From assembly GCA_015060225.1 (NCBI GenBank), contig SUYX01000016.1, positions 1 to 48,985 on the forward strand: 48,985 bases of DNA. Reading direction: 5' to 3'. The notes beneath the pieces are model-generated. The model searched no databases. It was not told the DNA's origin and saw only the letters and a list, made by a program, of their open reading frames with translations. Both the position numbers and the translations under genes were made by a program. Position 1 is the first letter of the stretch. The number at the start of each line of letters is the position of its first letter. Source of the stretch: Bacteroidales bacterium. GTDB lineage: Bacteria > Bacteroidota > Bacteroidia > Bacteroidales > UBA932. Of this stretch, positions 30,779-48,985 are shown in pieces.

Positions 30779-30784
30779 TGTTAT

Positions 30785-34152: not shown

Positions 34153-34158
34153 CATTGG

Positions 34159-34189: not shown

Positions 34190-34440
34190 TATTTTTGAGA
34201 TATATGGCACAGAACAGAATAATTGAAGGTACCTGCTCAAAGTCTCCTCTGCTGCGCCATTGCTCTGCAACAGCTTGCAACCGTCGGAATATGCAGGCAC
34301 CTTCATTTATTCTGTTCTGCTCTTTTGCACAATCTGGCCGAATCTCCTTAACTGCATCAATTAGTGCCCATTATGCAGCAGTTACCTCCATAAGTATCAT
34401 TTGTGCATCAATATGAGCCCTTTTTGCAGCCAATTCAGAT
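34179..34440 (-). pseudogene. Possible degraded coding remnant with 17-codon repeats
   Basis: A minus-strand frame reads SELAAKRAHIDAQMILMEVT, then AA-stop-WALIDAVKEIRPDC, then AKEQNRINEGACIFRRLQ, and stays open to a TAG at 34179-34181. Two 51-base units, starting at 34430 and 34379, share a GCTGCA...ATTGATGCA framework, giving a 17-codon period; the second holds a TAA. There is no start codon after the stop. This looks like a decayed helical-repeat gene whose last bases have become the btuB promoter region. Chance cannot be ruled out. Confidence 0.3.
34210..34319. repeat. 27-bp imperfect inverted repeat
   Basis: The arms are 34210-34236 (CAGAACAGAATAATTGAAGG and seven more bases) and 34293-34319, complementary with two mismatches, around a 56-nt centre. 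On transcription it would make a long hairpin. It lies in the otherwise empty 34201-34449 interval between the btuB promoter and mltD. Confidence 0.7.
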
Positions 34441-34449
34441 GTACAGTTA

Positions 34450-36063
34450 CTACAGCTTTCTGATTTTTATCTTACGCCCTGGATATATCTTTGAATTCTT
34501 TGAAAGTCCGTTCAGGCTCAGGATATCATTGAGAGATACACCTTTGAACTTATATGCTATACCCAACAGGGTATCACCGCTCTTTATTGTGTACCACTCG
34601 TATCCTCCGCTCTTGGATGTGCTTGCAGATGATTTTGAGCCGCTTCCCGTCCCCTTGGATACTGCAGGGGCACTTCCACCATAGATATTTATCCGTTGCC
34701 CTATCCTCAACACCGATTTTGAGGTAAGTCCGTTCCATCTCATGAGGTTGCGTACACTTACATGATACTTCATTGCTATATGGCCGAGCGTCTCACCTTT
34801 CTTAACCCTATGCACAATGTTTCCTGTACCTGATTTGGATGCATCCTCCTTAATGTTCTGTTTGGTAATTGCATTGAAGTATATACTGTCTTTATAGGCG
34901 TATATCTCCTTCTCCTTCTCTATGAACGGTATTGTATAGTTGTACGGAAGCTGGAGGACACACTCACCGCCTGTTCCTGGAACTATATTTTGTACATATT
35001 GCGGATTGTAGTTCTTGAGGTCTTCCATAGGGATTCCAATTACTGCCGATATCTGCTCAAAATGGAGGTTCCTGTTCACCTTTACAGTATCTACATGTGC
35101 AGGAAGGTTGAACTGTGCAGGCTGGATATTATGCTCCTTGTAATACTCCAACAAATAAAGGGCTGCAATGAATGATGGCACATATCCCCTTGTCTCCCTT
35201 GGCAGATAAGGGTATATTTTCCAGAAGTCCCTGCTTCCGGCCCTGCGGATAGCCTTGTTCACATTGCCTACACCACAGTTGTATGATGATATTGCAAGGA
35301 ACCAGTCGCCAAAGATAGTATAGGAATCCCTCAAATATTTTGCAGCCGCATGTGTAGATGCCAAAGGATCAAGACGCTCATCTATGTAGGAATTGATCTT
35401 AAGGTTATACTGCAGCGCTGTCCTGTACATGAACTGCCACATACCTCTTGCCCTCACCCTGGAAGTGGCGGTAGGGTTAAGTGCAGATTCAATGATTGCC
35501 ATTGCCTTAAGTTCCTTTGGAAGGCCATAATAATCAAAAACCTCCTCAAACATGGGGAGATAGTAGCTGCTCAATCCAAGAATGTGGCTTGCCTTTGAAG
35601 GCATCTTTTCTGTATAGTAGATGATATGGTTCTTTACAATGCTGTTATATGTGAGGGGAATAAATGAATTGATCCTGTTCAGCCTCTCAATATATACATC
35701 GTCGGGAATATTGGATGTAAGTACAACACTGTCCAGATCCCTCTCGTTGTCACTGAGTGTAAGCCTTTTCTGTATGTACCACATTGAGAGGAGACTGTCG
35801 GGATTACAGCCTGGATCCACATTGGCAAAATGCTCGCTGTCTTCAAAGTTGAATCCCTCCGGACCACTCATTGGTTCATACTGGGTGGTATCGGACATCT
35901 CCAATGCTCCACCCTCTATGATGTTCTTGAGGGAATCTATTGTACGCTGCATCTCCACCCTCTCTTTGAGAAGCTGTTTTTTTGTAAGCTTCTGGGCCGA
36001 TGCAACAGTTGGAAGGGCAAAAACAAATATAAGTAATATCAGCAGTGTTCTATTGTAGGACAT
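34450..36063 (-). CDS. mltD: Membrane-bound lytic murein transglycosylase D-like protein
   Basis: This 537-residue exported enzyme cleaves peptidoglycan glycan strands. After a signal peptide (LLILLIFVFALPTVASAQ) comes an SLT (family 1) domain at about residues 165-290: GLPKELKAMAIIESALNPTATSRVRARGMWQFM (two adjoining motifs, with the catalytic Glu in IESAL) and AISSYNCGVGNVNKAI. Two LysM domains follow, RVKKGETLGHIAMKYHVSV at about 405 and YTIKSGDTLLGIAYKFKGV at about 490, joined by a Ser/Gly linker. It ends the parA-parB-DUF5683-mltD run. Confidence 0.93.
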   Translation of the reverse strand: MSYNRTLLILLIFVFALPTVASAQKLTKKQLLKERVEMQRTIDSLKNIIEGGALEMSDTTQYEPMSGPEGFNFEDSEHFANVDPGCNPDSLLSMWYIQKRLTLSDNERDLDSVVLTSNIPDDVYIERLNRINSFIPLTYNSIVKNHIIYYTEKMPSKASHILGLSSYYLPMFEEVFDYYGLPKELKAMAIIESALNPTATSRVRARGMWQFMYRTALQYNLKINSYIDERLDPLASTHAAAKYLRDSYTIFGDWFLAISSYNCGVGNVNKAIRRAGSRDFWKIYPYLPRETRGYVPSFIAALYLLEYYKEHNIQPAQFNLPAHVDTVKVNRNLHFEQISAVIGIPMEDLKNYNPQYVQNIVPGTGGECVLQLPYNYTIPFIEKEKEIYAYKDSIYFNAITKQNIKEDASKSGTGNIVHRVKKGETLGHIAMKYHVSVRNLMRWNGLTSKSVLRIGQRINIYGGSAPAVSKGTGSGSKSSASTSKSGGYEWYTIKSGDTLLGIAYKFKGVSLNDILSLNGLSKNSKIYPGRKIKIRKL

Positions 36064-36087
36064 TGTTGTTTAAAGTGTATATGGTTC

Positions 36088-37002
36088 TTAAAAATTTAAA
36101 TTCATCTGGAAACCGAACGGCTGTCTCATGCTGTTTGAAGCAAATGTACTCCCCAATGGGGCAACCGGAGTTATCATAGACGGCTCTACATTGAATGTAA
36201 TGTCGTCACTTATGTCAAATGTACTGAAATGGGCAAACACATTGGCATCAATTATATTAAGGGCATACACCAGTATTGTGGCAATTATTGAGTAGTCCCT
36301 CATGCGCCTGTGCTGGTCCCTGTACCATTTTATATTGTCTACGGTAAGGTTGCCCTTGTATTCGCCGTCATTATATGCTATATACATATCCCTGTACCGG
36401 TCATATTGCTGCTGGTTGAATCCCAAGGCATAGAAACATGCTCCCAGGCCTGTATAGAAAATTGGTATCTTCCAGTAGTCCCCATTATAAGCCTGTCCCA
36501 AACCCGGCACAAGGGCCGAGAGCATTGATGCACGGGCAGGCAGCGGCTTCTCCTTGCTTTTGTAGGAGATGACTCCATCAAGGACACTCCCCCAGTAGCA
36601 TGCTACAGCTCCTGCAATAAAGTACTTCTGTGAATCCTTCCCTTTGTTTGCAATGGCACCTCCAACACATCCGCCAATTGCACCATATACCACCGGAAGT
36701 TTCCAGTATTGTCTGTTGTATATCTGCGCTGTACCGGGGAGCACCATTGAACCTATAGCCATCTGGTTCACTTTCATTGAATCCTTATGGGCAAGTGACT
36801 TGAAATACCTTTTTACAGTAAATGCAGGTTTTCTGGATGTTACAACAACCTCATCATCTTCATTATTGGTGTTGTTCTGGTCCATTGTATTGGCGCCCGG
36901 AGGGGCTGTATTTATGAAACCTGTATTGAACTGGGCACTACAAGGCAATGCCGCAAAAAGCGACACCACTACAGCAACCAATATTATAAAAATCCTTTGC
37001 AC
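36088..37002 (-). CDS. DUF5683-type membrane protein
   Basis: This protein of about 304 residues is found beside parAB in many Bacteroidetes and has no known function. It starts with a signal-like segment (QRIFIILVAVVVSLFAALPCSAQ) and has a duplicated hydrophobic motif: MVLPGTAQIYNRQYWKLPVVYGAIGG and LVPGLGQAYNGDYWKIPIFYTGLGA. I chose a GTG start at 37002, 10 nt after the parB stop, because the signal peptide begins there; the frame continues upstream through parB only as an overlapping reading without ATG near the signal. The P-G-x-x-Q-x-Y-N repeat is clear. Confidence 0.8.
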   Translation of the reverse strand: MQRIFIILVAVVVSLFAALPCSAQFNTGFINTAPPGANTMDQNNTNNEDDEVVVTSRKPAFTVKRYFKSLAHKDSMKVNQMAIGSMVLPGTAQIYNRQYWKLPVVYGAIGGCVGGAIANKGKDSQKYFIAGAVACYWGSVLDGVISYKSKEKPLPARASMLSALVPGLGQAYNGDYWKIPIFYTGLGACFYALGFNQQQYDRYRDMYIAYNDGEYKGNLTVDNIKWYRDQHRRMRDYSIIATILVYALNIIDANVFAHFSTFDISDDITFNVEPSMITPVAPLGSTFASNSMRQPFGFQMNLNF

Positions 37003-37012
37003 CTGTTTCTGT

Positions 37013-37924
37013 TTAAATGTTTGAGTTTTCCAATGCCTGGAGGAAATCCTCCACCTCCTTGTCATTGTTGAAGCGGATGGTAATCTCACCTGCACCTTTA
37101 CTGTCCCTTTTTGCAGTAATGTTGTTGTTGAAGTACTTCCCGATAATTTCAATCACCCTGAAATGACCTTCAGGCAACTCAATTACAGGAGCCTCCTCTT
37201 TTCCTTTTTTCTCCTTCTTCTCACCCAGTTTCTGAATCTTCTGCTCAATCTGCCTTACAGAGAGGTCCTGTTCAATTATCTGGTTGGCAAACTTCAACTG
37301 ATCCTTGTCACTCTCCAGCGAAAGGAGAGCCTTTGCATGCCCCATTGAGATCTTCTTTGCCCTAATTGCAAACTGTATCTCGGCAGGGAGTTTCAACAGA
37401 CGGAGGTAGTTTGTAACTGTTGCCCTCTTCTTCCCTACCCTCTCGGCCATTGCCTCCTGTGTGAGGTTACACTCCTCAATAAGCCTCTGGAAGCTGAGAG
37501 CCACCTCTATGGAATCAAGGTCTTCACGCTGGATATTCTCCACAATTGCCATCTCCAGCATACCCTGGTCATCGGTCTTGCGGATATATGCCGGTATTTT
37601 GTCAAGCCCTGCAATCTGGCTTGCCCTATACCTTCTCTCTCCGCTAATTATCTGGTATCTCCCGTTCTCCAACGGCCTTACGGTAATTGGCTGTATCAGC
37701 CCCAACAGCTTGATTGAGGCTGCCAGCTCCTCCAGAGCCTCCTGGTTGAACTCTGTACGTGGCTGGTATGGATTGGGCTCTATCCTGCTTATCTCAATCT
37801 CTGAGGTTGAAACCAAAGGGCGTGCATCCCCTGCAGCCGGCTTGCCTGCCGCCTGCTGAATTGAATTTACATCCGAGATAAGGGCCCCAAGCCCCCTTCC
37901 AAGTCCTGTCTGTATCTTTGCCAT
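37013..37924 (-). CDS. parB: Chromosome-partitioning protein ParB
   Basis: ParB binds parS sites and, as a CTP-using clamp, spreads along DNA to segregate chromosome origins. The 303-residue protein starts with the family tag MAKIQTGLGRGLGALI and has the nuclease-like/CTP-binding motif LLGLIQPITVRPLENGRYQIISGERRYRA (two adjoining segments, about 90-120), ENIQREDLDSIE, a helix-turn-helix TQEAMAERVGKKRATVTNYLRLL (about 165-187), and a C-terminal dimer domain. It is 3 nt after parA, so a chromosomal (not plasmid) parAB is likely given the housekeeping neighbours. Confidence 0.96.
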   Translation of the reverse strand: MAKIQTGLGRGLGALISDVNSIQQAAGKPAAGDARPLVSTSEIEISRIEPNPYQPRTEFNQEALEELAASIKLLGLIQPITVRPLENGRYQIISGERRYRASQIAGLDKIPAYIRKTDDQGMLEMAIVENIQREDLDSIEVALSFQRLIEECNLTQEAMAERVGKKRATVTNYLRLLKLPAEIQFAIRAKKISMGHAKALLSLESDKDQLKFANQIIEQDLSVRQIEQKIQKLGEKKEKKGKEEAPVIELPEGHFRVIEIIGKYFNNNITAKRDSKGAGEITIRFNNDKEVEDFLQALENSNI

Positions 37925-37927
37925 ATG

Positions 37928-38704
37928 CTATTGCTCCTGCTGTTGTTTGGAAATGAACTCCTTTGCCAGATTGAGGTAATCATTTGAACCTCTGGAAAGG
38001 ACATCATACAAAATTACCGGCTTTCCATGGCTCGGTGCTTCACTCAACCTCACATTCCTGTTTATCATTGTCTGGAATACCATACTGCCAAAATGATGCC
38101 TAACTTCCTCCACAATCTGGTTTGCATACCTCAATCTGCCGTCAAACATGGTAAGGAGGAACCCTTCAATTGCCAGCTGCGGATTGAGTCTGTTCTGCAC
38201 AAGTTTTATTGTATTGAGCAGCTTACCCAAACCCTCAAGTGCAAAAAACTCGCACTGTACAGGAATTATAACGGAATCCGCTGCTGTAAGGGAGTTTATT
38301 GTAATGAGCCCCAAAGATGGAGAACAATCTATGATAATATACTCAAACTGCTCCTGGAGCGATTCAATATTGTTTTTGAGCACACTCTCCCTTGCATCCA
38401 TATTGAGCATCTCAATCTCTGCACCTACAAGATTGATGTGTGAAGGGACTATCTTAAGGTTCTTTATCTCTGTCTGGAGAATGATGTCATTTATATTCTT
38501 CTCTCCAATAAGCACCTCGTACAGGGTACTCTTGGAATTGGAATCGGGATCAAAATTCAATCCTGATGTAGTATTTGCCTGCGGGTCGGCATCAATTATG
38601 AGGGTGCTCTTCTCCAGAACAGCCAATGATGCCGCAAGGTTAATTGCTGTGGTTGTCTTCCCCACGCCCCCTTTCTGATTTGCTATAGCTATAACTTTTC
38701 CCAT
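37928..38704 (-). CDS. parA: Chromosome-partitioning ATPase ParA (Soj)
   Basis: ParA is the ATPase partner of ParB. The 258-residue protein starts MGKVIAIANQKGGVGKTTTA, with the deviant Walker A (KGGVGKTT, signature Lys first) at about residues 11-18. Other motifs are LIIDADPQANTTSGL (about 40), YIIIDCSPSLGLITINSLTAAD (about 115) and VIIPVQCEFFALEGLGKL. An ATG 21 bases upstream would lie in a candidate promoter element (TATTTTTG at 38723-38730), so I reject it. Confidence 0.96.
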   Translation of the reverse strand: MGKVIAIANQKGGVGKTTTAINLAASLAVLEKSTLIIDADPQANTTSGLNFDPDSNSKSTLYEVLIGEKNINDIILQTEIKNLKIVPSHINLVGAEIEMLNMDARESVLKNNIESLQEQFEYIIIDCSPSLGLITINSLTAADSVIIPVQCEFFALEGLGKLLNTIKLVQNRLNPQLAIEGFLLTMFDGRLRYANQIVEEVRHHFGSMVFQTMINRNVRLSEAPSHGKPVILYDVLSRGSNDYLNLAKEFISKQQQEQ

Positions 38705-38722
38705 AAATGAAACTCTGACCTG

Positions 38723-38730
38723 CAAAAATA
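38723..38730 (-). promoter_or_regulatory. Candidate -7 element of the parA operon
   Basis: Minus strand TATTTTTG, matching TAnnTTTG, 18 nt before the parA start. No TTTG was found at the proper upstream spacing. Confidence 0.4.
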
Positions 38731-38760
38731 CTAAATCTTTTTTAAGAGTAGAGATTTTAT

Positions 38761-38768
38761 TACATTTG
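38761..38768 (+). promoter_or_regulatory. Candidate -7 element of the lipid kinase gene
   Basis: TACATTTG at 38761-38768, 23 nt before the start codon; a CTTTTTT run around 38737-38743 may serve as a poor -33 element. Confidence 0.45.
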
Positions 38769-38791
38769 CATACTATAAAGTTTTCAACAAT

Positions 38792-39739
38792 ATGGGAATA
38801 ACAGATATCTGGATGGTGATTGTAAACCCCAAGGCCGGAAGCGGCAGGGGATTGAAGGACTGGCCCATCATATCAAACCAGATGTACAACAGCGGAGTGC
38901 ACTTCACCTGCCTGTTCACGGAACACAAATACCACGCAATGGAACTTACGGTAAAGGCCATAAACGACGGCTACCGCAACATTGTGGCCGTGGGCGGTGA
39001 CGGTACAATCCATGAAGTTGTAAACGGCATCTTCATACAGAAAAAGGTTCCCACAACAGAGATTTCCCTTGCCGTTATCCCGACAGGTACCGGCAACGAC
39101 TGGATAAGGATGTTCGGCATCTCCAAAACCTACATGGAGGCAGTGAAATCCCTTGTTGAAAAGCGCACCGTACTGCAGGATGTGGCAAAAGTATCATACT
39201 ACGAAACACGGGTACAGCACACCCGTTATATGGCAAATGTGGCAGGTCTTGGCTACGATGCAGTGGTAAACATGAAATACAATATCCTCAAAGATGAGGG
39301 AAAATACGGCAAAGGGCTCTATGTGAGGAGCGCATTCCACACCTTTGCCAGGTTCAGCCCAATAAAGTTCAACATTAAGGCAGACGGCAAGGAGTTCTAC
39401 AACGGAATGGTATTCTCCGGAGCGGTAGGTATAGGAAAATATAATGGAGGCGGTATGCAGCAGACACCATACGCTGCCATAGATGACGAGCTGATGGACC
39501 TTACCATCATAAAGAAGATGTCAAAACTGAGGATTATACGCAACTTCAGACTCCTGTACAGCGGAAATATATATTCCATTCCAAAAGTAATCCATACCCA
39601 GTGCAAGAAACTTGAGATTGAGACATGGCCCGAGAGCCGTATAGAGATAGACGGAGAGGCTGTAGGTACTTCCCCTTTCACTTTTGAGCTTGTACCCCAT
39701 GCAATAAGGGTTGTGGTTGGAGTAAACTACATCATTTAA
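38792..39739 (+). CDS. Diacylglycerol kinase-family lipid kinase (YegS/DgkB type)
   Basis: The 315-residue protein phosphorylates a lipid, probably diacylglycerol or a sphingoid relative. The N-terminal domain has VIVNPKAGSGRGLKDWP at about residues 10-26, the nucleotide motif NIVAVGGDGTIHEVVNGIF near 70 and VIPTGTGNDWIRMFGIS near 100; the C-terminal domain is the beta sandwich of the family (KLEIETWPESRIEIDGEAVG with the conserved IDGE). It has its own promoter and ends inside the tail of the convergent priA gene by 4 bases. Confidence 0.92.
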   Translation: MGITDIWMVIVNPKAGSGRGLKDWPIISNQMYNSGVHFTCLFTEHKYHAMELTVKAINDGYRNIVAVGGDGTIHEVVNGIFIQKKVPTTEISLAVIPTGTGNDWIRMFGISKTYMEAVKSLVEKRTVLQDVAKVSYYETRVQHTRYMANVAGLGYDAVVNMKYNILKDEGKYGKGLYVRSAFHTFARFSPIKFNIKADGKEFYNGMVFSGAVGIGKYNGGGMQQTPYAAIDDELMDLTIIKKMSKLRIIRNFRLLYSGNIYSIPKVIHTQCKKLEIETWPESRIEIDGEAVGTSPFTFELVPHAIRVVVGVNYII

Positions 39740-41982
39740 AGGGGATCCACATCCAAGATAATGGAATTATAGTTCCTTATCTCCCCAATGCACTCCTGCA
39801 GTGCCCTCTTGTTGTGCGCCAACCTGTTGTCGCGGGCCAGCTTAACATAAAAGCATTTTATGAACTCTCCCCTTATCTTGTCAATTACCGGGGTGAACGG
39901 GCCTGTAAGTTCCTTGTATTCCAAATCCTTTCTTCCCTGCAATTTTTCCTGTATCTGACAACACAACTCCTGCAGTTTTGCAGCATCCCTGTGCTTTACA
40001 ATTATCTTCACCATCCTCACATACGGTGCAAAATGGAACTGCTGCCTCTCGCCCAGCAGTTGCGCGGTGATGGCAGGAAGTGCTGTGGTACCGCAGGTAT
40101 TACGGGAATTGTCGGGATTATGGAAATTGTGGTGATTGCCCTTCAGCAGCGACTGCAGGACAGGGTGTTCCTTCCGGTTTGTCTGGATTATGAGTTTCCC
40201 CTGCTCTCCCCTCCTGCCGGTGCGCCCCATAAGCTGCTCCAGGAGCTGGAGAGCCTTCTCATCCCCCCTGAAATCCTGTACACCCAAAATGGTGTCTGCC
40301 GCCAGCACTGCCACCAGCTTCAGACGCTCAAAATCAAACCCTTTGCTTATCATCTGGGTCCCGACAAGGATATTTATCCTTCCCTCCGCAAAATCCTTTA
40401 TCACCTGCTCCTCTACCTTTTTGCTCTGGGCAATGTCTGCATCATATCGGGCAATTGTGGCATCGGGGAAGATAGCAGCAAGTTCCTCCTCCAGTTTCTC
40501 TGTACCGGCCCCCCTGTAGATGAACGAGGAGGTTCCACAACTGCGGCATACACCGGTGAAACTGCCTGTGAAATCACAATAGTGGCACCGGAGGGTGTTG
40601 TTGTATTTATGGTAACTCAAATGTACGTTGCAGTGGGGGCATTTTGGAATCTCCCCGCACTCCTGACACTCCACAATTGGGGAATAGGAACGGCGGTTGC
40701 GGAAAACCAGCACCTGGTTCCCCTGCTCCATTGTGCGCCTCATCTCATTTATGAGTTTCTGGGAGAAGTTCCCCACCATCTGGCGGGTCTTGCGGGCATA
40801 AATTGTATCAACAATCTCCACCTGCGGAGGGGTGGCCCCGTAATATTTCTCTGTAAGTTCCACCAGAGCAAACCTCCCCAGCAGACAATTGTACTCGCTC
40901 TCAAAAGATGGGGTGGCAGAGCCCAGAAGTATTCCTGCCTTGTGTATCCTGGAGAGCATTATGGCCGTATCCTTTGCCTGGTAGCGCGGTGCCGGCTCTG
41001 TCTGCTTGTAACTGGAATCATGCTCCTCATCTACAATCACCAGCCCCAGATTGCTTAACGGCAGGAATAGCGAAGAGCGGGTTCCTAGGATTACAACGGC
41101 GGAGTTGGGGGTGTGAAAGGTTGCCGTTTGTAGTGCGGCTTCCTGTGTAGCCTCCTTTGTCCCCTTCTGTGTAACCTCCTTTGTCCCCTCCTGCATTGCC
41201 GTGCAATCCCAGCGCTGAAGGTTTTCACCCTGCAGTTCTTCTTGTCGGGAAGTAGCATTGTATTGCAAAATTCTGTGGATGCGGGCTTTTTCGGCTGCAG
41301 TCTGTTTGGAATGGAATGTGAGGAGCCGCTCCCCGAACACCCTCTTCAGACGGCTCTGCAACTGCTTGCTTATTGCAATCTCCGGCACCATATACAGCAC
41401 ACTCTTCCCCCGGCGCAACTGATCCAAGGCGAGGGTAATGTAAATCTCAGTCTTTCCGCTCCCCGTAACACCCCTCAACAATACCGGCTTGTGCAGGTTC
41501 TCTTCAATCTGGCGCAATGCCTGCTGCTGGGGGGCATTTAAGACGACGTCTTTATTTACAATAACCTCATTATTAAGGCTCTTTAAAAACATCTCCACCG
41601 TTTTGCGGGGCTTTACGCTCTCCTGCTTTACTGTAAGAGCAGGGTAGGCAGCCTTGAAAACCTCTCCCACGCTGCACAGGTAATACTGTGCAACCTGTTC
41701 CCAAAGTTCAATCTCGGTAGGGAGTATCTTTGGAAGGGGCTCAACGGAGAGCAATGGCTTGTACTGGATCTCCTTGCCGTCGGGAGTATGGGTGGGAACC
41801 TCCTCTGCAGAGAGGATTTCCTTAACCACACCAGGGTATATCTTATTGGCCAGCTCAACTTTCACACGGGAACCACGCTCCACCTCAAAAATATTGGGCA
41901 CAATGTAAGAAACCTCCCCGCTGAACTTAACAGGAAGAATCACAGAAGCATAGTGCCTGGTATGAGGTATCTGCGGTTCCAT
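39736..41982 (-). CDS. priA: Primosomal protein N' (replication restart helicase PriA)
   Basis: PriA recognises stalled forks and reloads the replisome. The 748-residue protein has a DNA-binding N-terminal domain (YASVILPVKFSGEVSYIVP), Walker A RGVTGSGKTEIY at about 170, the DEEHD box (VIVDEEHDSSYKQ), and the zinc-binding Cys clusters CQECGEIPKCPHC and CHYCDFTGSFTGVCRSCG, followed by VGTQMISKGFDFE and GRTGRRGEQGKL. I chose the ATG at 41982 because an earlier in-frame one lies inside tRNA-Phe. A low-complexity segment encoded at 41144-41191 interrupts the helicase core. Confidence 0.96.
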   Translation of the reverse strand: MEPQIPHTRHYASVILPVKFSGEVSYIVPNIFEVERGSRVKVELANKIYPGVVKEILSAEEVPTHTPDGKEIQYKPLLSVEPLPKILPTEIELWEQVAQYYLCSVGEVFKAAYPALTVKQESVKPRKTVEMFLKSLNNEVIVNKDVVLNAPQQQALRQIEENLHKPVLLRGVTGSGKTEIYITLALDQLRRGKSVLYMVPEIAISKQLQSRLKRVFGERLLTFHSKQTAAEKARIHRILQYNATSRQEELQGENLQRWDCTAMQEGTKEVTQKGTKEATQEAALQTATFHTPNSAVVILGTRSSLFLPLSNLGLVIVDEEHDSSYKQTEPAPRYQAKDTAIMLSRIHKAGILLGSATPSFESEYNCLLGRFALVELTEKYYGATPPQVEIVDTIYARKTRQMVGNFSQKLINEMRRTMEQGNQVLVFRNRRSYSPIVECQECGEIPKCPHCNVHLSYHKYNNTLRCHYCDFTGSFTGVCRSCGTSSFIYRGAGTEKLEEELAAIFPDATIARYDADIAQSKKVEEQVIKDFAEGRINILVGTQMISKGFDFERLKLVAVLAADTILGVQDFRGDEKALQLLEQLMGRTGRRGEQGKLIIQTNRKEHPVLQSLLKGNHHNFHNPDNSRNTCGTTALPAITAQLLGERQQFHFAPYVRMVKIIVKHRDAAKLQELCCQIQEKLQGRKDLEYKELTGPFTPVIDKIRGEFIKCFYVKLARDNRLAHNKRALQECIGEIRNYNSIILDVDPL
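41144..41191. repeat. 24-bp tandem duplication inside priA
   Basis: TGTGTAGCCTCCTTTGTCCC and its neighbour (41144-41167, 41168-41191) form two near-identical 24-bp units, giving two eight-residue repeats in PriA (TKEVTQKG and TKEATQEA on the coding strand). It is an in-frame insertion in a loop between helicase motifs. Confidence 0.8.
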
Positions 41983-42018
41983 ACGTTCCACAAAAATATG
42001 AAAAAAGTTGCAAAATAA

Positions 42019-42049
42019 TTTGGAGAATAGAAAATAATATCTACCTTTG
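42019..42049 (+). promoter_or_regulatory. Promoter of tRNA-Phe
   Basis: TTTG at 42019-42022, 19-nt spacer, TACCTTTG at 42042-42049. The mature tRNA starts 16 nt downstream. Confidence 0.75.
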
Positions 42050-42064
42050 TAATCCCAAAACGAT

Positions 42065-42137
42065 GGTGCCATAGCTCAGTTGGTAGAGCAAAGGACTGAA
42101 AATCCTTGTGTCCCCGGTTCGATTCCTGGTGGCACCA
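42065..42137 (+). tRNA. tRNA-Phe (anticodon GAA)
   Basis: The cloverleaf is complete: acceptor GGTGCCA pairs with TGGCACC, the D arm is GCTCAGTTGGTAGAGC, the anticodon arm AAGGACTGAAAATCCTT shows GAA, and the T arm is CCCGGTTCGATTCCTGG. A discriminator A follows and no CCA is encoded. Such 3' ends are common attachment sites, and accessory DNA begins just downstream. Confidence 0.97.
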
Positions 42138-42140
42138 CAC

Positions 42141-42172: not shown

Positions 42173-42193
42173 GGTTTGTGGCTCTTCCCCCGG

Positions 42194-42401
42194 CCCCTTC
42201 CGTCCACAAAAAGGGTATCTTTTGTGGAGGAGTTGTTCTTGTAGATGCCTTTTGTCCACAGAAAGGGTGTCTTTTGTGGATGCACTGTTCTCTTTAGCCC
42301 CTTCCGTCCACAAAAAAGGTATCTTTTGTGGATGAGTTGGATTTTCTTGCACCTTTTGTCCACGCCAGAGGTATCCTGTGTGGAGGGAATGCATTCCAAA
42401 A
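42194..42401. repeat. Four 52-bp tandem repeats, each with a hairpin core
   Basis: GTCCAC starts at 42202, 42254, 42306 and 42358, exactly 52 bases apart, marking units 42194-42245, 42246-42297, 42298-42349 and 42350-42401. Units 1-3 hold a palindrome of the form CCACAAAA, about 8 nt, TTTTGTGG; unit 4 is diverged but keeps CCAC...GTGG. Units 1 and 3 share CCCCTTCC, units 2 and 4 share CCTTTTG, so a 104-bp duplication is likely. It fills the interval between tRNA-Phe and the hip remnant. Confidence 0.9.
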
Positions 42402-42427: not shown

Positions 42428-42565
42428 TCAGGGCATGGTAAGACTAACTATCTCGGCATCGGCAGATGTTAGATAATCGGCGTCATACTCAAATGTGTAG
42501 CCGTTCTCATCTTCTGTCAAGATACCGGCTTGTACGCCTCGCAAAAATACAACAGCCTGTTTCAT
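42428..42565 (-). pseudogene. hipA: Truncated hipA N-terminal domain
   Basis: Forty-five codons read MKQAVVFLRGVQAGILTEDE then NGYTFEYDADYLTSADAEIV and SLTMP, then TGA. This is the opening of the HipA N-terminal domain (the part that ends in a SLTMP/SLTLP strand). Reading through the stop gives VTKPI, close to the expected continuation, then the sequence runs into the 52-bp repeats, so the rest of the domain and the kinase gene are gone. Its ATG overlaps the hipB stop (ATGA). HipA is the kinase toxin that phosphorylates a tRNA synthetase in E. coli; this piece cannot act as a kinase. Confidence 0.7.
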
Positions 42566-42780
42566 CGCTCATCGGTTTTAGTTATTGGCACTACGCCCAC
42601 TTCGCTGCCAAAAAGATTCAATATCTGGTTTACCTTATCAAGACGTAAAGTTTGTTTGCCCTGCTCCAATTCACGAACAAGACGCAAGCCCACCCCCGAT
42701 TTTTCGGAAAGTTCCACCTGCGTAAGATTATACTGCTTACGCATCGCCTTTACATATTTTGAAAGTGTTGTCTGCTCCAT
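42562..42780 (-). CDS. hipB: HipB-like antitoxin / XRE-family repressor
   Basis: The 72-residue protein has a helix-turn-helix of the HTH_3 type at about residues 10-60 (VKAMRKQYNLTQVELSEKSG and LRLVRELEQGKQTLRLDKVN) followed by FGSEVGVVPI, the tail typical of HipB proteins of the y4mF group. I chose the ATG at 42780; a GTG two codons earlier is also possible. The gene overlaps the hipA fragment, as in intact hipBA operons. Three palindromic sites upstream are its likely operators. It may now survive as a stand-alone repressor. Confidence 0.85.
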   Translation of the reverse strand: MEQTTLSKYVKAMRKQYNLTQVELSEKSGVGLRLVRELEQGKQTLRLDKVNQILNLFGSEVGVVPITKTDER

Positions 42781-42793
42781 ATACACAATAAAT

Positions 42794-42979: not shown

Positions 42980-43078
42980 ATCTAAAACTTGCCACGATAA
43001 CAACTTTGTAATACTCGCTCAATATCGCTTTCACGATAAAAAATTGCTTACCAAAGATGAAATTTCGCATATTATCAC

Positions 43079-43086
43079 TAAATTTG
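43079..43086 (+). promoter_or_regulatory. Candidate -7 element of the restriction-modification cluster
   Basis: TAAATTTG, exact TAnnTTTG, 28 nt before the small HTH gene. No TTTG at -33 was found. Confidence 0.45.
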
Positions 43087-43114
43087 CGATATACGCCAAT
43101 AAAATGTGTAAATA

Positions 43115-43306
43115 ATGAAAGATTTAAATAGACTTAAAGTAGTATTGGTTGAACAAAAGAAAACTGGCAAATGGCTTGCCGAGCAGTTAGGCAAAGACCC
43201 CTCAACTGTTTCCAAATGGTGCTCAAACAAGATGCAACCATCGTTGGAGATGCTGTCGCAAATAGCCAAAGTACTTAATGTGGATACCAAGAATTTAATC
43301 AATTAG
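43115..43306 (+). CDS. Small XRE-family helix-turn-helix regulator
   Basis: The 63-residue protein is little more than one helix-turn-helix: TGKWLAEQLGKDPSTVSKWC at about residues 17-36, then MQPSLEMLSQIAKVLNV. Small proteins of this kind often stand before restriction-modification genes and act as controller (C) proteins that delay the nuclease until methylation is done. It lies 40 nt before the fused nuclease-methylase gene on the same strand. The fold is clear; the controller role is inferred from position. Confidence 0.85.
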   Translation: MKDLNRLKVVLVEQKKTGKWLAEQLGKDPSTVSKWCSNKMQPSLEMLSQIAKVLNVDTKNLIN

Positions 43307-43346
43307 ATTCTGTTTATTACTATTCAAAAGTTAATATAAGATAAGG

Positions 43347-45605
43347 ATGGAACTTGAGATAAAAGATAATTTGATTTTCGAACCTCTTAAAAAGAAATAC
43401 GGCATTTTGACTCCAGAAGAACGCGTGCGTCAAGAATATATTTGCAGACTAGTAGACCACTATGGCTATGAGTTATCGCAAATGGAACAGGAAGTTCAGG
43501 TGAGTAATTCTCATCGTGGACAGGGGAAGGCTAGAGCTGATATCGTCATATGGAAGTCAGCTTCTTCAAAAAGCAATGAGGATGCAGCAATAATTGTGGT
43601 TGAGTGCAAAGCTGAGCATATCACCATTCGTGAAGAGGATTATTTCCAGGGCTATAACTATGCTGCTTGGGCAGGTGCAGACTTCTTTGTTACTACCAAC
43701 CTCAAAGAAACGCGAGTTTTCAAGGTTGTAAAGGGCAAGTTACCTAAGCGTTTGGAGGAGATTGTGGATATTCCCAAAGCGGAAGATTTGACTAATGATA
43801 AAAAATTGAAAGAATTATTAAGTCAAACCAAAGCTTTCACGCGTGATGAGTTTAGTAAACTTCTCTTTAAATGTCATAATATAATACGAAACAACGATAA
43901 ACTTTCACCAGAAGCTGCTTTTGATGAGATAAGCAAAGTATTGTTTATGAAAATAAGATATGAGAGAAATCCTAATGGAGACAATATCTTTTCTCTGAAG
44001 CAATTTAAAAGGGAAGAAATACATTACGAAAAAGTTATTAGGCCAGTGAATATCAAACGTAATGGACCTAAAGATGATATTCCGTATATGGATTATTGGT
44101 TTGAGTTAACCAAGGCTGAATTCGATAAAGATAATCTATTTGATACTAACGATACTATTAAAATAAAACAGGCAAGTTTTGAGGCTATTGTGAAAGAGTT
44201 AGAGGTTTATAATCTCTCTCGCACTGCTGATGATGTCAAGGGTATTGCCTTTGAAAAATTCTTGGGCAAGACTTTCCGTGGCGAGTTGGGCCAATTCTTC
44301 ACACCTCGTACCATTGTGGATTTTATGGTTGCCTTGCTTGACCCCGAGGAGGGAGAGGTAATTTGTGATCCATGCTGCGGAAGTGGAGGCTTCTTGATTA
44401 AAGCTTTTGAGTATGTACGTGAAAAGATTGAGAATGATATCCAGAAAGCAAAGGAACAGATTAAAGCACAACTCTTTGACGAAAAATATGATTCTTTGAG
44501 CGATAAGAAAAAAGCCGAGATTGACGAGCATATCGATGAATATTTCACTGTTCTCAATCAAGAACTCGACACGATTCACACTGATAGCCGTTTGCAACAT
44601 CTGTCGAGTGATTGCATCTTTGGCACTGACGCCAACCCACGTATGGCTCGTACCGCCAAAATGAATATGATTATGCACGGTGATGGCCACGGCGGCGTAC
44701 ATCATCACGATGGCTTGTTGAATGTTAATGGCATCTTTGAGAATCGCTTTGATGTGATTTTGACCAATCCTCCTTTCGGCTCTCGTGTTGAAAAGAGTTT
44801 GAGGATTACCGAGGCTGACAAGTTTACAGACGAGGCAAAAATCAAACACTACACCAAGCGTTATGGCGAGGAGTACACCAAGGCTTTGGAACAGGTCAAT
44901 GGCAATATCGGTGAATCTGTCCTCAGCCTCTACGACTCAGGTAAACTTAGTGGTTTGACCGAAGTATTGTTTATCGAGCGTTGCTTGCGATTGCTGAAAC
45001 CGGGTGGTCGCTTAGGTATCGTATTGCCAGAGGGCGTGTTGAATAACACTCAGCTCCAAAGCGTGCGCGAACTTTTCGAGGGTATGGCGAAGATTATTTT
45101 AATTACCTCTATTCCGCAGGATGTCTTTATGGCATCGGGCGCGACGGTTAAGCCAAGCCTTATGTTCTTCAAGAAGTTTACTACGGAGGAGGTCGTACAA
45201 TACGAGCAGGCGAAAGCAGAGGCTTGCGAGCAGGTAACGGATAAATATGCCGAGGAACTTGCTACATTAAACACCTTTATTGCCGACAAGAATAATCCTC
45301 GTTCAGAAATTAAGGTGAAGAAAGCAGAATTAAAGGTGCTTGAAGCGAAGATTGCCGAAGAAATTAAGCCGATAGTTAAACAGCTTTTCGATTATCAAAT
45401 TCCCATCGCACAGGTACAAAAGGCGGGTATTACCACTACCGGTGCCGAGTGCGAGAACGAATTGGAAGAGTTACTCAAAGAGTACGCACCTTATCGTAAG
45501 GAGCATAAACTATGGGAGGCTACTGCAAAACACTATGAATATAAGGTTGAAAACAACCATTTCTACAAGAAGTTGAACGACGGCGAATGGGAGGAGATAT
45601 GCTAA
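43347..45605 (+). CDS. Fused restriction nuclease and N6-adenine DNA methylase (BcgI-like RM subunit)
   Basis: The 752-residue protein joins both activities. Residues 1-130 match the HsdR N-terminal nuclease type: Glu29, Asp65 (ARADIVIW), Glu86 and Lys88 (VVECKAE) of PD-(D/E)XK, and Gln101/Tyr105 (FQGYNYA). Residues about 280-640 form an HsdM-like gamma-class methylase: GELGQFFTPRTIVDFMV (312-328), motif I CDPCCGSGGFL (340-350), motif IV TNPPFG (473-478). A coiled, Glu/Lys-rich part follows. Type I HsdM is shorter and has a separate HsdR; no hsdR is in view. The layout with a separate S gene equals BcgI-type type IIB/IIG systems. The methylase and domain order are seen; cleavage is inferred. 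Confidence 0.88.
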   Translation: MELEIKDNLIFEPLKKKYGILTPEERVRQEYICRLVDHYGYELSQMEQEVQVSNSHRGQGKARADIVIWKSASSKSNEDAAIIVVECKAEHITIREEDYFQGYNYAAWAGADFFVTTNLKETRVFKVVKGKLPKRLEEIVDIPKAEDLTNDKKLKELLSQTKAFTRDEFSKLLFKCHNIIRNNDKLSPEAAFDEISKVLFMKIRYERNPNGDNIFSLKQFKREEIHYEKVIRPVNIKRNGPKDDIPYMDYWFELTKAEFDKDNLFDTNDTIKIKQASFEAIVKELEVYNLSRTADDVKGIAFEKFLGKTFRGELGQFFTPRTIVDFMVALLDPEEGEVICDPCCGSGGFLIKAFEYVREKIENDIQKAKEQIKAQLFDEKYDSLSDKKKAEIDEHIDEYFTVLNQELDTIHTDSRLQHLSSDCIFGTDANPRMARTAKMNMIMHGDGHGGVHHHDGLLNVNGIFENRFDVILTNPPFGSRVEKSLRITEADKFTDEAKIKHYTKRYGEEYTKALEQVNGNIGESVLSLYDSGKLSGLTEVLFIERCLRLLKPGGRLGIVLPEGVLNNTQLQSVRELFEGMAKIILITSIPQDVFMASGATVKPSLMFFKKFTTEEVVQYEQAKAEACEQVTDKYAEELATLNTFIADKNNPRSEIKVKKAELKVLEAKIAEEIKPIVKQLFDYQIPIAQVQKAGITTTGAECENELEELLKEYAPYRKEHKLWEATAKHYEYKVENNHFYKKLNDGEWEEIC

Positions 45606-46957
45606 ATGCTATGAAATATATTTCGACAGTCCCATATAGCGGATTGTTCAATTGGAGTGTGCAATATCTGAATGATTCTAAGATTGCATTCAGCAAGGCA
45701 TACCCAATGATGCGTATCGGAGATTTTCTGAGACGCAATAAAACGGCTGTGGCTATTGAGGATGATAAAACTTACAAGCGAGCAACAATTAAAGTTCGCA
45801 ATGGAGGTATCTTTCTACGAGACGAGGAGATTGGCAGCAAGATTGGCACTAAGAATCAATTCTTGATTTCAAAGGGACAATTTCTATTGTCCAAAATAGA
45901 TGCTCGTAATGGCGCATTTGGAGTTGTACCAGAGAAATTAGATGGAGGTGTTATTACCGGTAACTTTTGGACTTTCGATGTTGATTATAGCATTGTGAAT
46001 CCTCACTATTTGGCACTACTAACAACTACGGATGCTTTTATCCAATTTTGTGAGCAAGCTAGTAATGGTACCACTAATCGCCATTATTTACAAGAACCAC
46101 TTTTCCTCAATATTAAAGTCCCTATTCCATCTTTAGAGGATCAGAATAAGTTGGTGAAAGCATATAATGATATTATGGCTTTCATAAAGATAGAAGAAAT
46201 GGAAGCCATTGACATAGATTTAAAAGTAACGGTTAATGTAAGAAATGCGTTAGGAGTAGCCCCATACCCCGGACATATCGAGAAGAAATTAGTGCATTAT
46301 ATTGATTATTGCGCAATAGATTCTTGGAGTGTCCCTCAGATATTACACGCTGAAAATTCTCCATTTGGGAAAAGTAAATTTGCTTGCAAGAAATTATCGG
46401 ATTTGGCATTTATAAACCCTAAGACAGACTTGTCTATGTTGTCAGATGATGATAACATGTCATTTATTCCTATGGAAGATATATCAGATGTCTATGGAGA
46501 GTGGATAGGAAAAAGAATTGGTTGTAAATCAGACATAAAAGGATACACTAAATTCCAGGATGGTGATATTGTTTGGGCAAGAATAACCCCTTGTATGCAA
46601 AATGGCAAATCTGCTTTATTAACAAATTTGGTCAATGGAAAAGGATATGGATCAACAGAGTTTCATGTTGTTCGTGTGAAGTCAAGTGATGTACTACCTC
46701 AATATATCCATACTTTAATACGTCATTTCGATGTGTTATCTGATGCTAAAAAATATTTTACAGGGTCAGCCGGTCAGCAACGAGTTCCAACATCATACTT
46801 GGAGAATCTACTGATACCAATTCCTCCATTAGGTGTTCAAAAGCAAATATCAGATGAATACACAAATGGCATTGAACAAGCCAAGCAGGGGTATATGAAG
46901 ATATACAATTACAAACAAGAATTGAAGAAGAACTTCGAAGCCCAAATTTTTGAGTAA
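45599..46957 (+). CDS. Restriction-modification specificity (S) subunit
   Basis: This 452-residue HsdS-like protein recognises the DNA target of the methylase-nuclease. It has two half-units: TRD1 (about 25-150) followed by IPSLEDQNKLVKAYNDIMAF, and TRD2 (about 255-395) followed by IPIPPLGVQKQISDEYTNGI; the paired PxPxxxxQ boundaries and helices are characteristic. A bipartite target is expected. The ATG at 45599 overlaps the end of the RM gene by 7 bases and has GGAGG just upstream; the earlier ATG at 45587 and a later one at 45611 are possible. S genes vary fast, so the target cannot be read. Confidence 0.92.
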   Translation: MLNAMKYISTVPYSGLFNWSVQYLNDSKIAFSKAYPMMRIGDFLRRNKTAVAIEDDKTYKRATIKVRNGGIFLRDEEIGSKIGTKNQFLISKGQFLLSKIDARNGAFGVVPEKLDGGVITGNFWTFDVDYSIVNPHYLALLTTTDAFIQFCEQASNGTTNRHYLQEPLFLNIKVPIPSLEDQNKLVKAYNDIMAFIKIEEMEAIDIDLKVTVNVRNALGVAPYPGHIEKKLVHYIDYCAIDSWSVPQILHAENSPFGKSKFACKKLSDLAFINPKTDLSMLSDDDNMSFIPMEDISDVYGEWIGKRIGCKSDIKGYTKFQDGDIVWARITPCMQNGKSALLTNLVNGKGYGSTEFHVVRVKSSDVLPQYIHTLIRHFDVLSDAKKYFTGSAGQQRVPTSYLENLLIPIPPLGVQKQISDEYTNGIEQAKQGYMKIYNYKQELKKNFEAQIFE

Positions 46958-46958
46958 A

Positions 46959-47894
46959 ATGGCAAGAAAAAAGATAGAGACAATTATAAATGAAAAAATA
47001 CATCCTTTTTCATTAAATGAGAAAGGTTGTGCGGATATTGCTTGTCTAGTCTCTCAATACAAATACGATACACTTAGGAAGTGTGTTGATATAGGTGTAG
47101 CAAATTATTTTAGGTATGATGATAATGGGCAACTTACACAGGAGTCAGTAAATACTTTTCTAAATAAATTAGGAGGTATTGCTCATAATAAGTCACTACC
47201 CCCTATTGAACAAGAGATATTACACCTAAAAAATAAAGGTAAATATACCTTTAGATATTGGCGAGATGATATTGCAGATGAGATCTTACACGACTACGCG
47301 AGAGTATTAAGAGCACATTGGACAGAACAAATGGTTGTAGAGGATCTAAAGGGCGAAACTATACAACTAATGAATCGTTCCGGAAATTGGTCCACTTGGA
47401 CATCTTATATGAGGCATTGGATTGAAGACATAAAGAAATGGGGGCAAGAAGATACTGTTTCTGTTCAACAATCAGGCACGATACTTCCCGATGCCCTGTA
47501 CAACTGTTTACAATCCAATATTCAATCATTATGTAAACAGATAAATGCAAGCTATGAGAATAATTTATTTGATTGTACAGCAGTGATTATGCGAAGATTG
47601 CTTGAAAGTTTATTAGTGCTTTGTTACCAAAATACAGGTATTGAAGCTGATATAATGGATAAGAGCGGATGTTATCATATCACTTTGGATAAGATTATAA
47701 AAAATGCAGAGCAAAACAAGACTTTGGCTTTATCTGCTAATACTAGAAAAGAAATGGCAATATTTAAAGACTTAGGCAATTACTCTGCACATAAAATATG
47801 GTATAATTGTACCCAACAAGACATAAAACCTCACATATTAAAATACAGAACTATTATTGAAGAGTTGATGTATAAGTCGGGAGTAAAAAAATAG
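46959..47894 (+). CDS. Uncharacterised protein with a HEPN/DUF4145-like C-terminal part
   Basis: The 311-residue protein starts at the ATG 1 nt after the S-gene stop. Residues 1-180 are unlike anything I recognise, though AARKKIETIINEKIHPF-like charged helices (KKIETIINEKIHPFSLNEKG) open it. From about 195 the sequence is all-helical: NNLFDCTAVIMRRLLESLLV, then IFKDLGNYSAHKIWYN. The lxxLGNxSAH pattern is like DUF4145/HEPN-type helical bundles that occur in defence genes, but the catalytic Rx4-6H motif of HEPN nucleases is not plain. Tight spacing places it in the RM transcript. Confidence 0.6.
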   Translation: MARKKIETIINEKIHPFSLNEKGCADIACLVSQYKYDTLRKCVDIGVANYFRYDDNGQLTQESVNTFLNKLGGIAHNKSLPPIEQEILHLKNKGKYTFRYWRDDIADEILHDYARVLRAHWTEQMVVEDLKGETIQLMNRSGNWSTWTSYMRHWIEDIKKWGQEDTVSVQQSGTILPDALYNCLQSNIQSLCKQINASYENNLFDCTAVIMRRLLESLLVLCYQNTGIEADIMDKSGCYHITLDKIIKNAEQNKTLALSANTRKEMAIFKDLGNYSAHKIWYNCTQQDIKPHILKYRTIIEELMYKSGVKK

Positions 47895-47899
47895 TTATT

Positions 47900-48499
47900 A
47901 TGAATGATATAACATTAGAATCTTTGATTCAAGAGCATAAAAAGAGATTGCCATATCTATGTGATATCGGAGACATGTTGTCATATTATGAATACCCTGA
48001 TATGGAAGCATACCACAGATGGCTTGCTAAAACGATACGATATATTGAAATACAATACCCTAATGATAAATATGTTGTTGAATTTTGTGATGTAAGCAAA
48101 GAGAATATTTATCCAGACCAGCAGCGAAAGTTACTTGCCATATTGGAGGCTTTTGCTGTATTGCCGACAGTAATCCCAGATAATCGTACAAAACAGGCTA
48201 CAGAGAAAAAGGGTACAGAGAAAGATGCCATAAATGTTGTAACGACAATTAACAACTCTAACAGCCAATCTCAAAGTCAAGAGCAATCATTGGCGGTGGA
48301 GTTGTTTATAGAGGCAATCAAAGACGATTTGACAGGTCGCCAAATAAAAGAATTAAAATCCGTTGTAGCCGAAGCAGATAACGATTTGCAAAAGGCCCGT
48401 CCAGGTATCATTGCCAAACTCAAAGAATTCGGCTCAGATGTCGCCTCAAACATTGTTGCGAATCTTTTGACCAATCCTATGATTTGGGGTGGATTGTAA
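47900..48499 (+). CDS. Uncharacterised protein with Ser/Gln linker and hydrophobic C-terminus
   Basis: This 199-residue protein lies 5 nt after the preceding gene and 21 nt before the ATPase gene. Residues 1-95 form a helical N-terminal domain (TLESLIQEHKKRLPYLCDIG). A polar linker with NNSNSQSQSQEQS at about 118-130 follows. The C-terminal 70 residues run DDLTGRQIKELKSVVAEADN, RPGIIAKLKEF and end DVASNIVANLLTNPMIWGGL, an amphipathic to hydrophobic tail that could touch a membrane or a partner. I do not recognise the family. Its position before an ATPase suggests a partner role in defence; this is a guess. Confidence 0.6.
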   Translation: MNDITLESLIQEHKKRLPYLCDIGDMLSYYEYPDMEAYHRWLAKTIRYIEIQYPNDKYVVEFCDVSKENIYPDQQRKLLAILEAFAVLPTVIPDNRTKQATEKKGTEKDAINVVTTINNSNSQSQSQEQSLAVELFIEAIKDDLTGRQIKELKSVVAEADNDLQKARPGIIAKLKEFGSDVASNIVANLLTNPMIWGGL

Positions 48500-48520
48500 A
48501 CTTTATAATTTTCAAAGATT

Positions 48521-48916
48521 ATGAGACTAAAAAGTTTATACATAAGAGACTATAAAATATTACAAGATTTTAGTATTGATTTCACCTCGAATCTATCAGT
48601 TCTTATAGGTGAAAATGGTAGTGGTAAATCAAGTATAATAGAGTGTCTGGCTTATATTTTTGGACACTTACACAAATATTTTGTACTTGATGATAAAACT
48701 GCGGAATTTATTGATGGATACAAAATTAATTATACGATCAATGGATTAGATGTATATATTGAGAGTCATTACAAAGAATCTAAAAGCAATACATTTGATC
48801 CGATTATCAAAGTTAATGGAGATGAAATGTCCACATCTCAACTTAAGAAGAAATATAGAAATGTCCCCTTCCCTATAAATGTCCCCTTCCCTATAAATCG
48901 GACGGATTATAATTAG
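48521..48916 (+). pseudogene. AAA (RecF/OLD-like) ATPase gene broken by an insertion sequence
   Basis: The frame starts MRLKSLYIRDYKILQDFSID and has Walker A LIGENGSGKSSIIE at about 29-42, as in SMC/RecF/OLD-like ATPases of defence systems. After about residue 114 (SQLKKKYR) the reading enters the insertion-sequence end, giving a doubled NVPFPI and a stop at 48914-48916. ATPases of this type need a C-terminal half with signature and Walker B, which is missing, so the visible product should be inactive. The remainder of the gene, if still present, lies beyond the window. Confidence 0.75.
48862..48897. repeat. 18-bp direct repeat at the insertion-sequence end
   Basis: TGTCCCCTTCCCTATAAA occurs twice head to tail with no mismatch. 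It is either a doubled terminal repeat or the result of one IS end abutting another. Confidence 0.9.
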
Positions 48917-48940
48917 ACAAAAATCCTTAGATTTGTGTCT
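48915..48940 (+). promoter_or_regulatory. Promoter-like hairpin before the transposase
   Basis: AGACAAAAATC (48915-48925) and GATTTGTGTCT (48930-48940) form an 11-bp stem with one mismatch. TAGATTTG at 48928-48935 is a TAnnTTTG match, and the transposase ATG follows at once. A hairpin here could block translation of transcripts read in from the host gene. Confidence 0.5.
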
Positions 48941-48985
48941 ATGAAGAAGTCAGTACACAGCGAAAGTGAGATGGTCAAGGCCGTC
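48941..48985 (+). CDS. IS3-family transposase orfA-like protein, N-terminus only
   Basis: Fifteen codons are visible (MKKSVHSESEMVKAV), resembling the first helix of the HTH domain in IS3-family orfA proteins, which typically read K-K-x-x-x-S-E-x-x-x-x-K-A. The rest is beyond the window. The identification is from a short piece only. Confidence 0.55.
   Translation, partial: MKKSVHSESEMVKAV

Follow-up and report, generated by a model that had tools for sequence, protein, structure and literature searches.

BcgI-like restriction-modification (RM) enzymes are described as carrying a nuclease and an N6-methylase in one protein, accompanied by a separate specificity subunit, S (PMC3874165). In the EcoprrI system, the cited passages of three reports portray the effector PrrC as latent and released when phage T4 disables restriction (PMC3710099, PMC3874165, PMC12707154); suicide genes embedded in RM operons are already known, and sections of two of these sources propose such operons as multi-layer defence (PMC3710099, PMC12707154). 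Septu provides a third point of comparison: its PtuAB pair, according to the cited section, cleaves tRNA-Tyr during infection in one tested system (PMC13096335), and an excerpt of another report describes depletion of tRNA-Tyr by the PtuAB pair of retron-Eco7 (PMC11555353). Here we describe a BcgI-like pair, the nuclease–methylase M and its S subunit, encoded at the right end of a 48,985-nucleotide stretch from a Bacteroidales bacterium (GenBank assembly GCA_015060225.1, contig SUYX01000016.1), which as a whole we call the window. In its relatives, the M–S operon has a cargo slot directly after S whose contents are exchangeable, and an ATPase is the recurrent occupant. By analogy with EcoprrI and PrrC, we interpret the pair as possibly serving also as a chassis for exchangeable, probably abortive effectors, a reading to which we give a rough probability of 0.5. 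Less expected, and new to us, are the cargo slot behind a BcgI-like pair, an alternation between cis and trans nucleases of the ATPase, and a small protein, ORF4 (ORF, open reading frame); the open-licence literature yielded no report, among the matches listed, of Septu or OLD genes after the S gene of such a pair.

The window is the whole of contig C29 in an assembly of 2.15 Mb (64 contigs, 86% complete). An earlier sequence-only reading of this DNA had described M, an overlapping S gene and three further genes; the gene positions, the S–M overlap and the gaps of 1, 5 and 21 nt that it gave were all borne out on re-inspection, the overlap measuring 19 nt. On a single strand at the right end lie a 63-residue helix-turn-helix (HTH)-type gene, M, S, ORF3, ORF4 and the start of the ATPase gene, with successive gaps of 40, −19, 1, 5 and 21 nt. 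The features are as follows:

42065-42138, + strand: tRNA-Phe (gaa), upstream of the RM cluster
43115-43306, + strand: small HTH-type regulator gene, 63 aa, 40 nt upstream of M
43347-45605, + strand: M, nuclease–methylase, 752 aa (HSDR_N_2, N6_Mtase; PADLOC PDLC03018)
45587-46957, + strand: S, specificity subunit with two target-recognition stretches (Methylase_S; PADLOC Specificity_I)
46959-47894, + strand: ORF3, 311 aa, optional cargo; an N-domain and a C-domain weakly DUF4145/DUF5677-like
47900-48499, + strand: ORF4, 199 aa, optional cargo; 5 full-length homologues in 80 M loci
48521-48861, + strand: PtuA-like ABC ATPase gene, 5' fragment of ~113 residues (AAA_15, Walker A only)
48862-48985, + strand: end of an insertion sequence (IS), running off the contig; an 18-mer is doubled at 48862 and 48880

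A scan of a genome collection gave 217 stretches with M relatives, and the analyses use the best 80 of these loci (numbered with L below). M holds HSDR_N_2 (1.6e-25) and N6_Mtase (2.2e-34) in one protein and matches PADLOC PDLC03018 over its full length (1222 bits); an HsdR-type PD-(D/E)XK nuclease occupies residues ~23-143, methylase motif I residues 341-348 and the NPPF motif residues 474-477. S matches Methylase_S (1.2e-17) in two stretches, and both frames are intact in the window. Asp65, Glu86 and Lys88 are all conserved in 79 of 81 aligned M proteins, the exceptions being L076 (E86G) and L091, whose gene is split, and the methylase motif residues are conserved in 75 to 81 of the 81; the fusion of a nuclease bearing this triad to an N6 methylase, with a separate S, is as first described. 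Judged by its domains, the anatomy of the pair is BcgI-like. Compared with BcgI and BsaXI, multimeric enzymes of Type IIG and Type IIB, the likeness lies in the nuclease–methylase fusion and the separate S with two recognition stretches, whereas the nuclease is of the HSDR_N_2 type and the nearer match of M is a Type I M protein: among solved structures 2okc scores best (89.5 bits), while RM.BsaXI, a BcgI-like enzyme, reaches 68.7 bits over part of the methylase only. A sequence-only search of solved structures with a profile of the nuclease domain (13 sequences) retrieved no RM enzyme at E values up to 1. M–S is predicted to methylate adenines as a self mark, and it probably cleaves DNA that lacks this mark. 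Two side observations concern the pair in relatives. A gene of cluster c7, whose member in L040 is a DUF1016/YhcG nuclease, lies between M and S in L075, L097 and L110; and downstream of the E86G M in L076 lie a PtuA-type ATPase, a gene of the PtuB cluster and another ATPase, of 743 residues, that bears a TOPRIM-like motif.

By tblastn over the 80 loci, S was detected in 69, the ATPase family in 55, ORF4 in 5 and ORF3 in 1. Leaving aside 7 loci without a called S and 8 with fewer than 1200 nt after S, 65 loci could be judged; an ATPase lies in the M–S operon in 51 of them (52 counting L061, where the gap is wider) and directly after S in 44. Loci free of the ATPase carry a TIR-type gene (L037 and L091, the latter by cluster only), a DUF4325/HATPase-type gene (L074, L078 and L097, the last two by cluster only), a FokI-like nuclease (L106, where the sequence ends soon after the first cargo gene), Fic (L056), RhuM (L088), or a methyltransferase-like gene together with a DUF1848 gene (L105); L055, L080, L085 and L112 show no clear cargo. 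Across the loci, searches identified PtuA/PtuB, TIR, SLFN_AlbA_2, putAbiC, GmrSD, ApeA-HEPN, Piwi, Fic, RhuM and FokI-like families, further DUF4325 with a weak HATPase match and DUF4357 with a weak GIY-YIG match, and several of these cargo genes are recognisable defence or abortive-infection genes. The suggestion that the extra genes of the window add a second defence layer gains from the ATPase in 52 of 65 loci and from the several cargo genes of a defensive kind; the idea that the three form one module does not stand, as ORF3 accompanies the pair at 1 locus of the 80 and ORF4 at 5, with differing companions. Two cargo genes may be mentioned on their own. A DUF4357 protein of 275 residues that weakly matches GIY-YIG (PADLOC PDC-S14 family; a cluster of 13 proteins) stands behind different effectors in L042, L040, L037, L091, L064 and others, and the L099 operon includes an Argonaute-like gene with a Piwi domain (15486-17513), with a gene of the same cluster, assigned by cluster only, in L107.

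The exchange of cargo can be followed both on the M tree and at the DNA level. Mapped onto a tree of 81 M proteins, the three cargo classes assigned to 58 labelled loci require no fewer than 19 changes (the other 23 rows being unlabelled, namely the window, cut or unclear loci, and ATPase-free L055, L080 and L112), and 300 shuffles of the labels gave a mean of 23.4 changes with a range of 18-27; since 19 lies within the shuffled range, cargo follows the M tree at most weakly. The relatives nearest to the window M share 84-92% identity in the best segment and their cargo differs: ORF3, ORF4 and a PtuA fragment in the window; TIR and then a GIY-YIG/DUF4357 gene in L037 and L091; ORF4 and a TOPRIM ATPase in L039; and a Schlafen-type gene, AbiC, ORF4, a TOPRIM ATPase and a GIY-YIG/DUF4357 gene in L040. 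In DNA sequence the window and L091 are 84% similar across 43038-45655 and 91% similar across 46108-46960, the interruption falling within S; with L040 the similarity is 82% over 43367-46962 and resumes only within ORF4. As S ends at 46957, similarity stops 3 nt (L091) and 5 nt (L040) past the S stop codon, which therefore marks the edge of the exchanged part there; in L037 it stops earlier, inside S (46168).

The ATPase of this slot comes in two forms. Among 52 ATPases, 31 have a TOPRIM-like motif without PtuB, 17 are followed by PtuB without the motif, none has both and 4 have neither (Fisher p 2.7e-10, kinship ignored), where TOPRIM was assigned by a loose motif pattern and PtuB by family search in L042, L063 and L057 and by sequence cluster in the other 14. 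Because motif and PtuB alternate in 48 of 52, the ATPase appears to carry its nuclease either in cis, fused (TOPRIM-like), or in trans, as a separate HNH protein (PtuB). Intact M–S–PtuA–PtuB operons include those of Chryseobacterium antibioticum (L063) and Spirosoma fluviale (L058). Intact relatives match PtuA in PADLOC at up to 194 bits, and one matches both solved PtuA (56 bits) and the retron Ec83 ATPase; the gene following three intact ATPases matches PtuB, two of these passing TIGR02646, and a Pfam scan of one intact relative, the L042 ATPase, gave no HEPN. The likeness to Septu is thus that intact ATPase relatives match PtuA and the following genes PtuB; the difference is that the ATPase here stands downstream of M–S, and that the window keeps ~113 residues of it with no PtuB found. 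The ATPase, first read as part of a set without a described counterpart, is not a new component, since its intact relatives match Septu PtuA by themselves and ATPase–PtuB pairs occur with no M or S nearby in L140 and L142. Nor is the RM link of such ATPases new as annotation, given the name and matches of NCBIfam TIGR04435 ('restriction system-associated AAA family ATPase'): it ranks second among the NCBIfam matches for two ATPases paired with PtuB (94.6 and 81.8 bits) and first for the L040 TOPRIM-type ATPase (51.6 bits), although all scores lie under its cut-off of 300. The rlo genes of Campylobacter are a further precedent.

We envision, by analogy, that M–S would form the first line of defence, marking self DNA by adenine methylation and cutting what is unmarked, and that the ATPase–nuclease would stay latent while M–S works. 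The M–S complex, its inhibition or its failure, would control the effector behind S; when a phage blocks M–S, or infection advances, the effector would attack tRNA or DNA and growth would stop, as with PrrC in EcoprrI, with ORF4 as a putative coupling or sensing adaptor. Since EcoprrI–PrrC is known, a second layer acting upon restriction failure is precedented, as far as the passages cited at the outset describe it. The two arrangements share an ABC-ATPase effector gene inside an RM operon, PrrC being portrayed there as the second line; they differ in that EcoprrI belongs to the Type IC hsdMSR systems and its PrrC joins an ATPase to a HEPN domain, whereas the nuclease of the relatives here is TOPRIM-like or a separate HNH protein. 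In a comparison with PrrC and RloC, the window ATPase is cut before any C-terminal domain. If M–S controls its cargo, a Bacteroidota-wide RM family would be under guard, so that a phage disabling restriction would set off a second attack, and the many cargo types would be natural experiments in which one sensor drives different effectors. It would also become testable whether PtuAB pairs and ATPase-TOPRIM proteins are interchangeable outputs of the same control.

Several points weigh against such a chassis. Co-location does not show co-regulation, and defence genes cluster anyway; no such ATPase follows M–S in 13 of the 65 judged loci; and the 80 loci, mostly from Bacteroidota, are not independent of one another. 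The PtuAB pair of another Septu is reported, in the excerpt cited, to target DNA (PMC11555353), which leaves an abortive mode through tRNA uncertain. The restriction activity of the L076 M, which sits beside PtuAB, is doubtful because of E86G. Finally, an independent sample of the order, in which 5 of 294 other genomes had a PtuA match at 1e-20 or better (at most 5 candidates scored per genome), includes two ATPase–PtuB pairs without M or S in the available stretch (L140, L142). The same sample contains an M–S–PtuA–PtuB operon (L139, genome G214) and two loci where the ATPase is near more distant RM matches, M-like in L141 and both S-like and M-like, on either side, in L143. The ATPase is a recurrent partner of the M–S pair, yet its module also occurs alone.

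These lone pairs speak for the main rival explanation, which we regard as possible if somewhat unlikely: the BcgI-like RM pair and the Septu/OLD module would share an operon and a mobile island and be functionally uncoupled. The diversity of the cargo and its loose relation to the M tree fit this explanation as well, as does a tRNA-Phe neighbourhood common to the window, L091 and L074, which suggests a mobile island. It accounts less readily for an ATPase placed directly after S in 44 of 65 judged loci, and for the ATPase in both loci with more distant RM genes, in one of them (L143) between the S-like and M-like genes. As to the distribution of M, matches occur in 12 viral contigs and, at 1e-30, in 8 plasmid records; a close M was found in only 2 of 147 other genomes searched, so M is rare among relatives. 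One of these two (L145, G751) has M–S–ATPase, and in the other (L144) the contig ends just after S.

The resemblance to MADS raises another explanation, in which M–S would be a non-cutting methylation self-marker (MADS/BREX-like) and the ATPase–nuclease the restriction arm, acting on unmethylated DNA recognised by M–S. M, S and the ATPase have recognisable counterparts in MAD2, MAD5 and MAD3; M aligns with MAD2 over most of its length at 290.9 bits, under the NCBI cut-off of 720, S reaches 26.4 bits with MAD5 (cut-off 400), and MAD3 (cut-off 420) gives 20.8 bits for the window fragment and 32.9 and 38.8 for two intact relatives. That 48 of 52 ATPases have a cis or trans nuclease, and that the L076 M lacks the catalytic Glu, would suit a restriction arm outside M. 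We nevertheless hold this explanation to be quite unlikely: all three MADS scores are far under their cut-offs, the nuclease triad is conserved in every unsplit aligned M except L076, and M–S stands without the ATPase in 13 of the 65 judged loci.

In the window itself, an insertion sequence at the contig end interrupts the ATPase gene after ~113 residues. An 18-mer that exactly matches an IS terminus starts at 48862 and is repeated at 48880, copies of 48880-48985 lie near three further contig ends of this genome with different flanks, and the frame beyond residue ~113 is IS-encoded. The earlier description of a RecF/OLD-like ATPase was right as to a gene of the ATPase family, and only this fragment of it is present. 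The fragment matches AAA_15 (3.4e-16), with PtuA PDLC00293 as its best PADLOC match; within the 80 loci, 11 of the 12 ATPases closest to it are paired with PtuB, and in the twelfth, L069, the contig ends 214 nt after the ATPase, so that the fragment is most like the PtuB-paired (Septu) type. Neither the rest of the ATPase (query: an intact relative) nor PtuB (two queries) was found in the assembly, where the contig ends and completeness is 86%, and because of this incompleteness their loss is not proven. A 29% match in contig C24 was rejected as the ATPase remainder, as it sits in a different open frame of 484 residues. With its effector arm IS-broken, at most M, S, ORF3 and ORF4 can act in this genome. 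It would follow from the break, and from the missing PtuA remainder and PtuB, that the cluster is decaying here, its effector arm gone and ORF3 and ORF4 leftovers; we consider this highly improbable as an explanation, since the assembly is incomplete, the M, S, ORF3 and ORF4 frames are all intact, and decay says nothing on the intact relatives.

ORF4 consists of a helical N-domain (residues 1-90, diverging), a Ser/Gln linker and a helical C-domain (~127-197, conserved); its homologues share 39-52% identity with the window protein over residues 16-100 and 70-95% over residues 119-199, and a structural model has a pLDDT of 68. The length of 199 residues and the linker agree with the first description, whereas the hydrophobic tail offers no plausible membrane span, the most hydrophobic 19-residue stretch being internal (residues 77-95, mean 1.18). 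Counting the window, full-length ORF4 is present in six operons, and in all six the gene after it is the main effector: a TOPRIM ATPase (L039, L040, L087), PtuA (L042, window) or a HATPase-type gene (L078). Because it precedes the main effector each time, an adaptor role may hold. A full-length profile found ORF4 in 0 of 394 other genomes of the class at 1e-6, against 5 of 80 M loci, a rough contrast as the frequency of M in the class genomes was uncounted; separation from the RM pair, which would have spoken against the sequence-only reading, has thus not been seen so far for full-length ORF4. The C-domain by itself was detected in 20 of 294 further genomes of the order, and most of the proteins recovered are small and differ in their N-part. 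We rejected the notion of ORF4 as freely spreading, since only the C-domain does so; the N-parts of 14 of the proteins with partial matches failed to align with that of ORF4. In 26 loci with partial ORF3 or ORF4 matches, no M, S or ATPase was present in the stretches available (at most 3.4 kb). A broader version of the chassis reading, which we find rather doubtful, is that M–S would license any plugged-in effector (ATPase-nucleases, TIR, AbiC, HATPase-type), with ORF4 as a dedicated adaptor whose C-domain docks onto M–S or a shared partner and whose N-domain is tuned to the effector or the phage trigger. If a chassis of this kind exists, RM would act as a modular guard whose suicide outputs can be exchanged, in the manner of retron or CBASS cargo.

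ORF3 would be an alternative accessory in the proposed scheme, an optional cargo gene. The preferred start codon is the ATG at 46959, in agreement with the L094 orthologue (64% identity), L094 being the 1 locus of 80 with ORF3 beside M–S; partial matches occur in 5 of 294 genomes of the order, some probably by chance. The label 'HEPN/DUF4145-like' proved weak: ORF3 scores 17.3 bits with DUF4145 and its L094 orthologue 18.9, under the Pfam cut-off of 23.1, and in 5 aligned sequences with the C-domain the His of the HEPN Rx4-6H motif is conserved with no Arg at the required spacing. With weak profile scores and this Arg missing, ORF3 was rejected as a catalytic HEPN RNase. Its profile against solved structures returned only rows at E 0.25 or worse, and an AlphaFold model (two sequences) had a pLDDT of 39 and was unusable. 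ORF3 and ORF4 were absent from the viral contigs and plasmids searched, and the DNA at 46950-48521 had no plasmid match.

The 63-residue HTH gene before M, which we read as XRE-like, falls within the region covered by the sequence-only reading and was absent from its text. By blastp it has 16 related small proteins in the 80 loci, all of one cluster, and in 24 of 76 loci with a called upstream gene, M is directly preceded by a member of this cluster or of a second cluster of small genes. The tRNA-Phe (gaa) gene upstream of the RM cluster recurs in the same orientation in L091 (6866-6939) and L074 (4554-4627). In L091, what lies left of this gene matches nothing in window 30001-42061, a pattern suggestive of a mobile island at tRNA-Phe. 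A general role of tRNA-Phe as integration site was rejected, for besides the window it was found only in L091 and L074 among 63 loci scanned, many with little upstream sequence. On the minus strand at 42428-42786, a small HTH gene is followed by a 45-residue frame that, in our reading, looks like the truncated start of a HipA-type kinase; part of this region (42462-42640) recurs in L091 (7012-7190) at 87% DNA identity. After the tRNA-Phe gene, the stretch 42180-42400 contains several near-repeats with TGTCCAC / GTGGA-type motifs.

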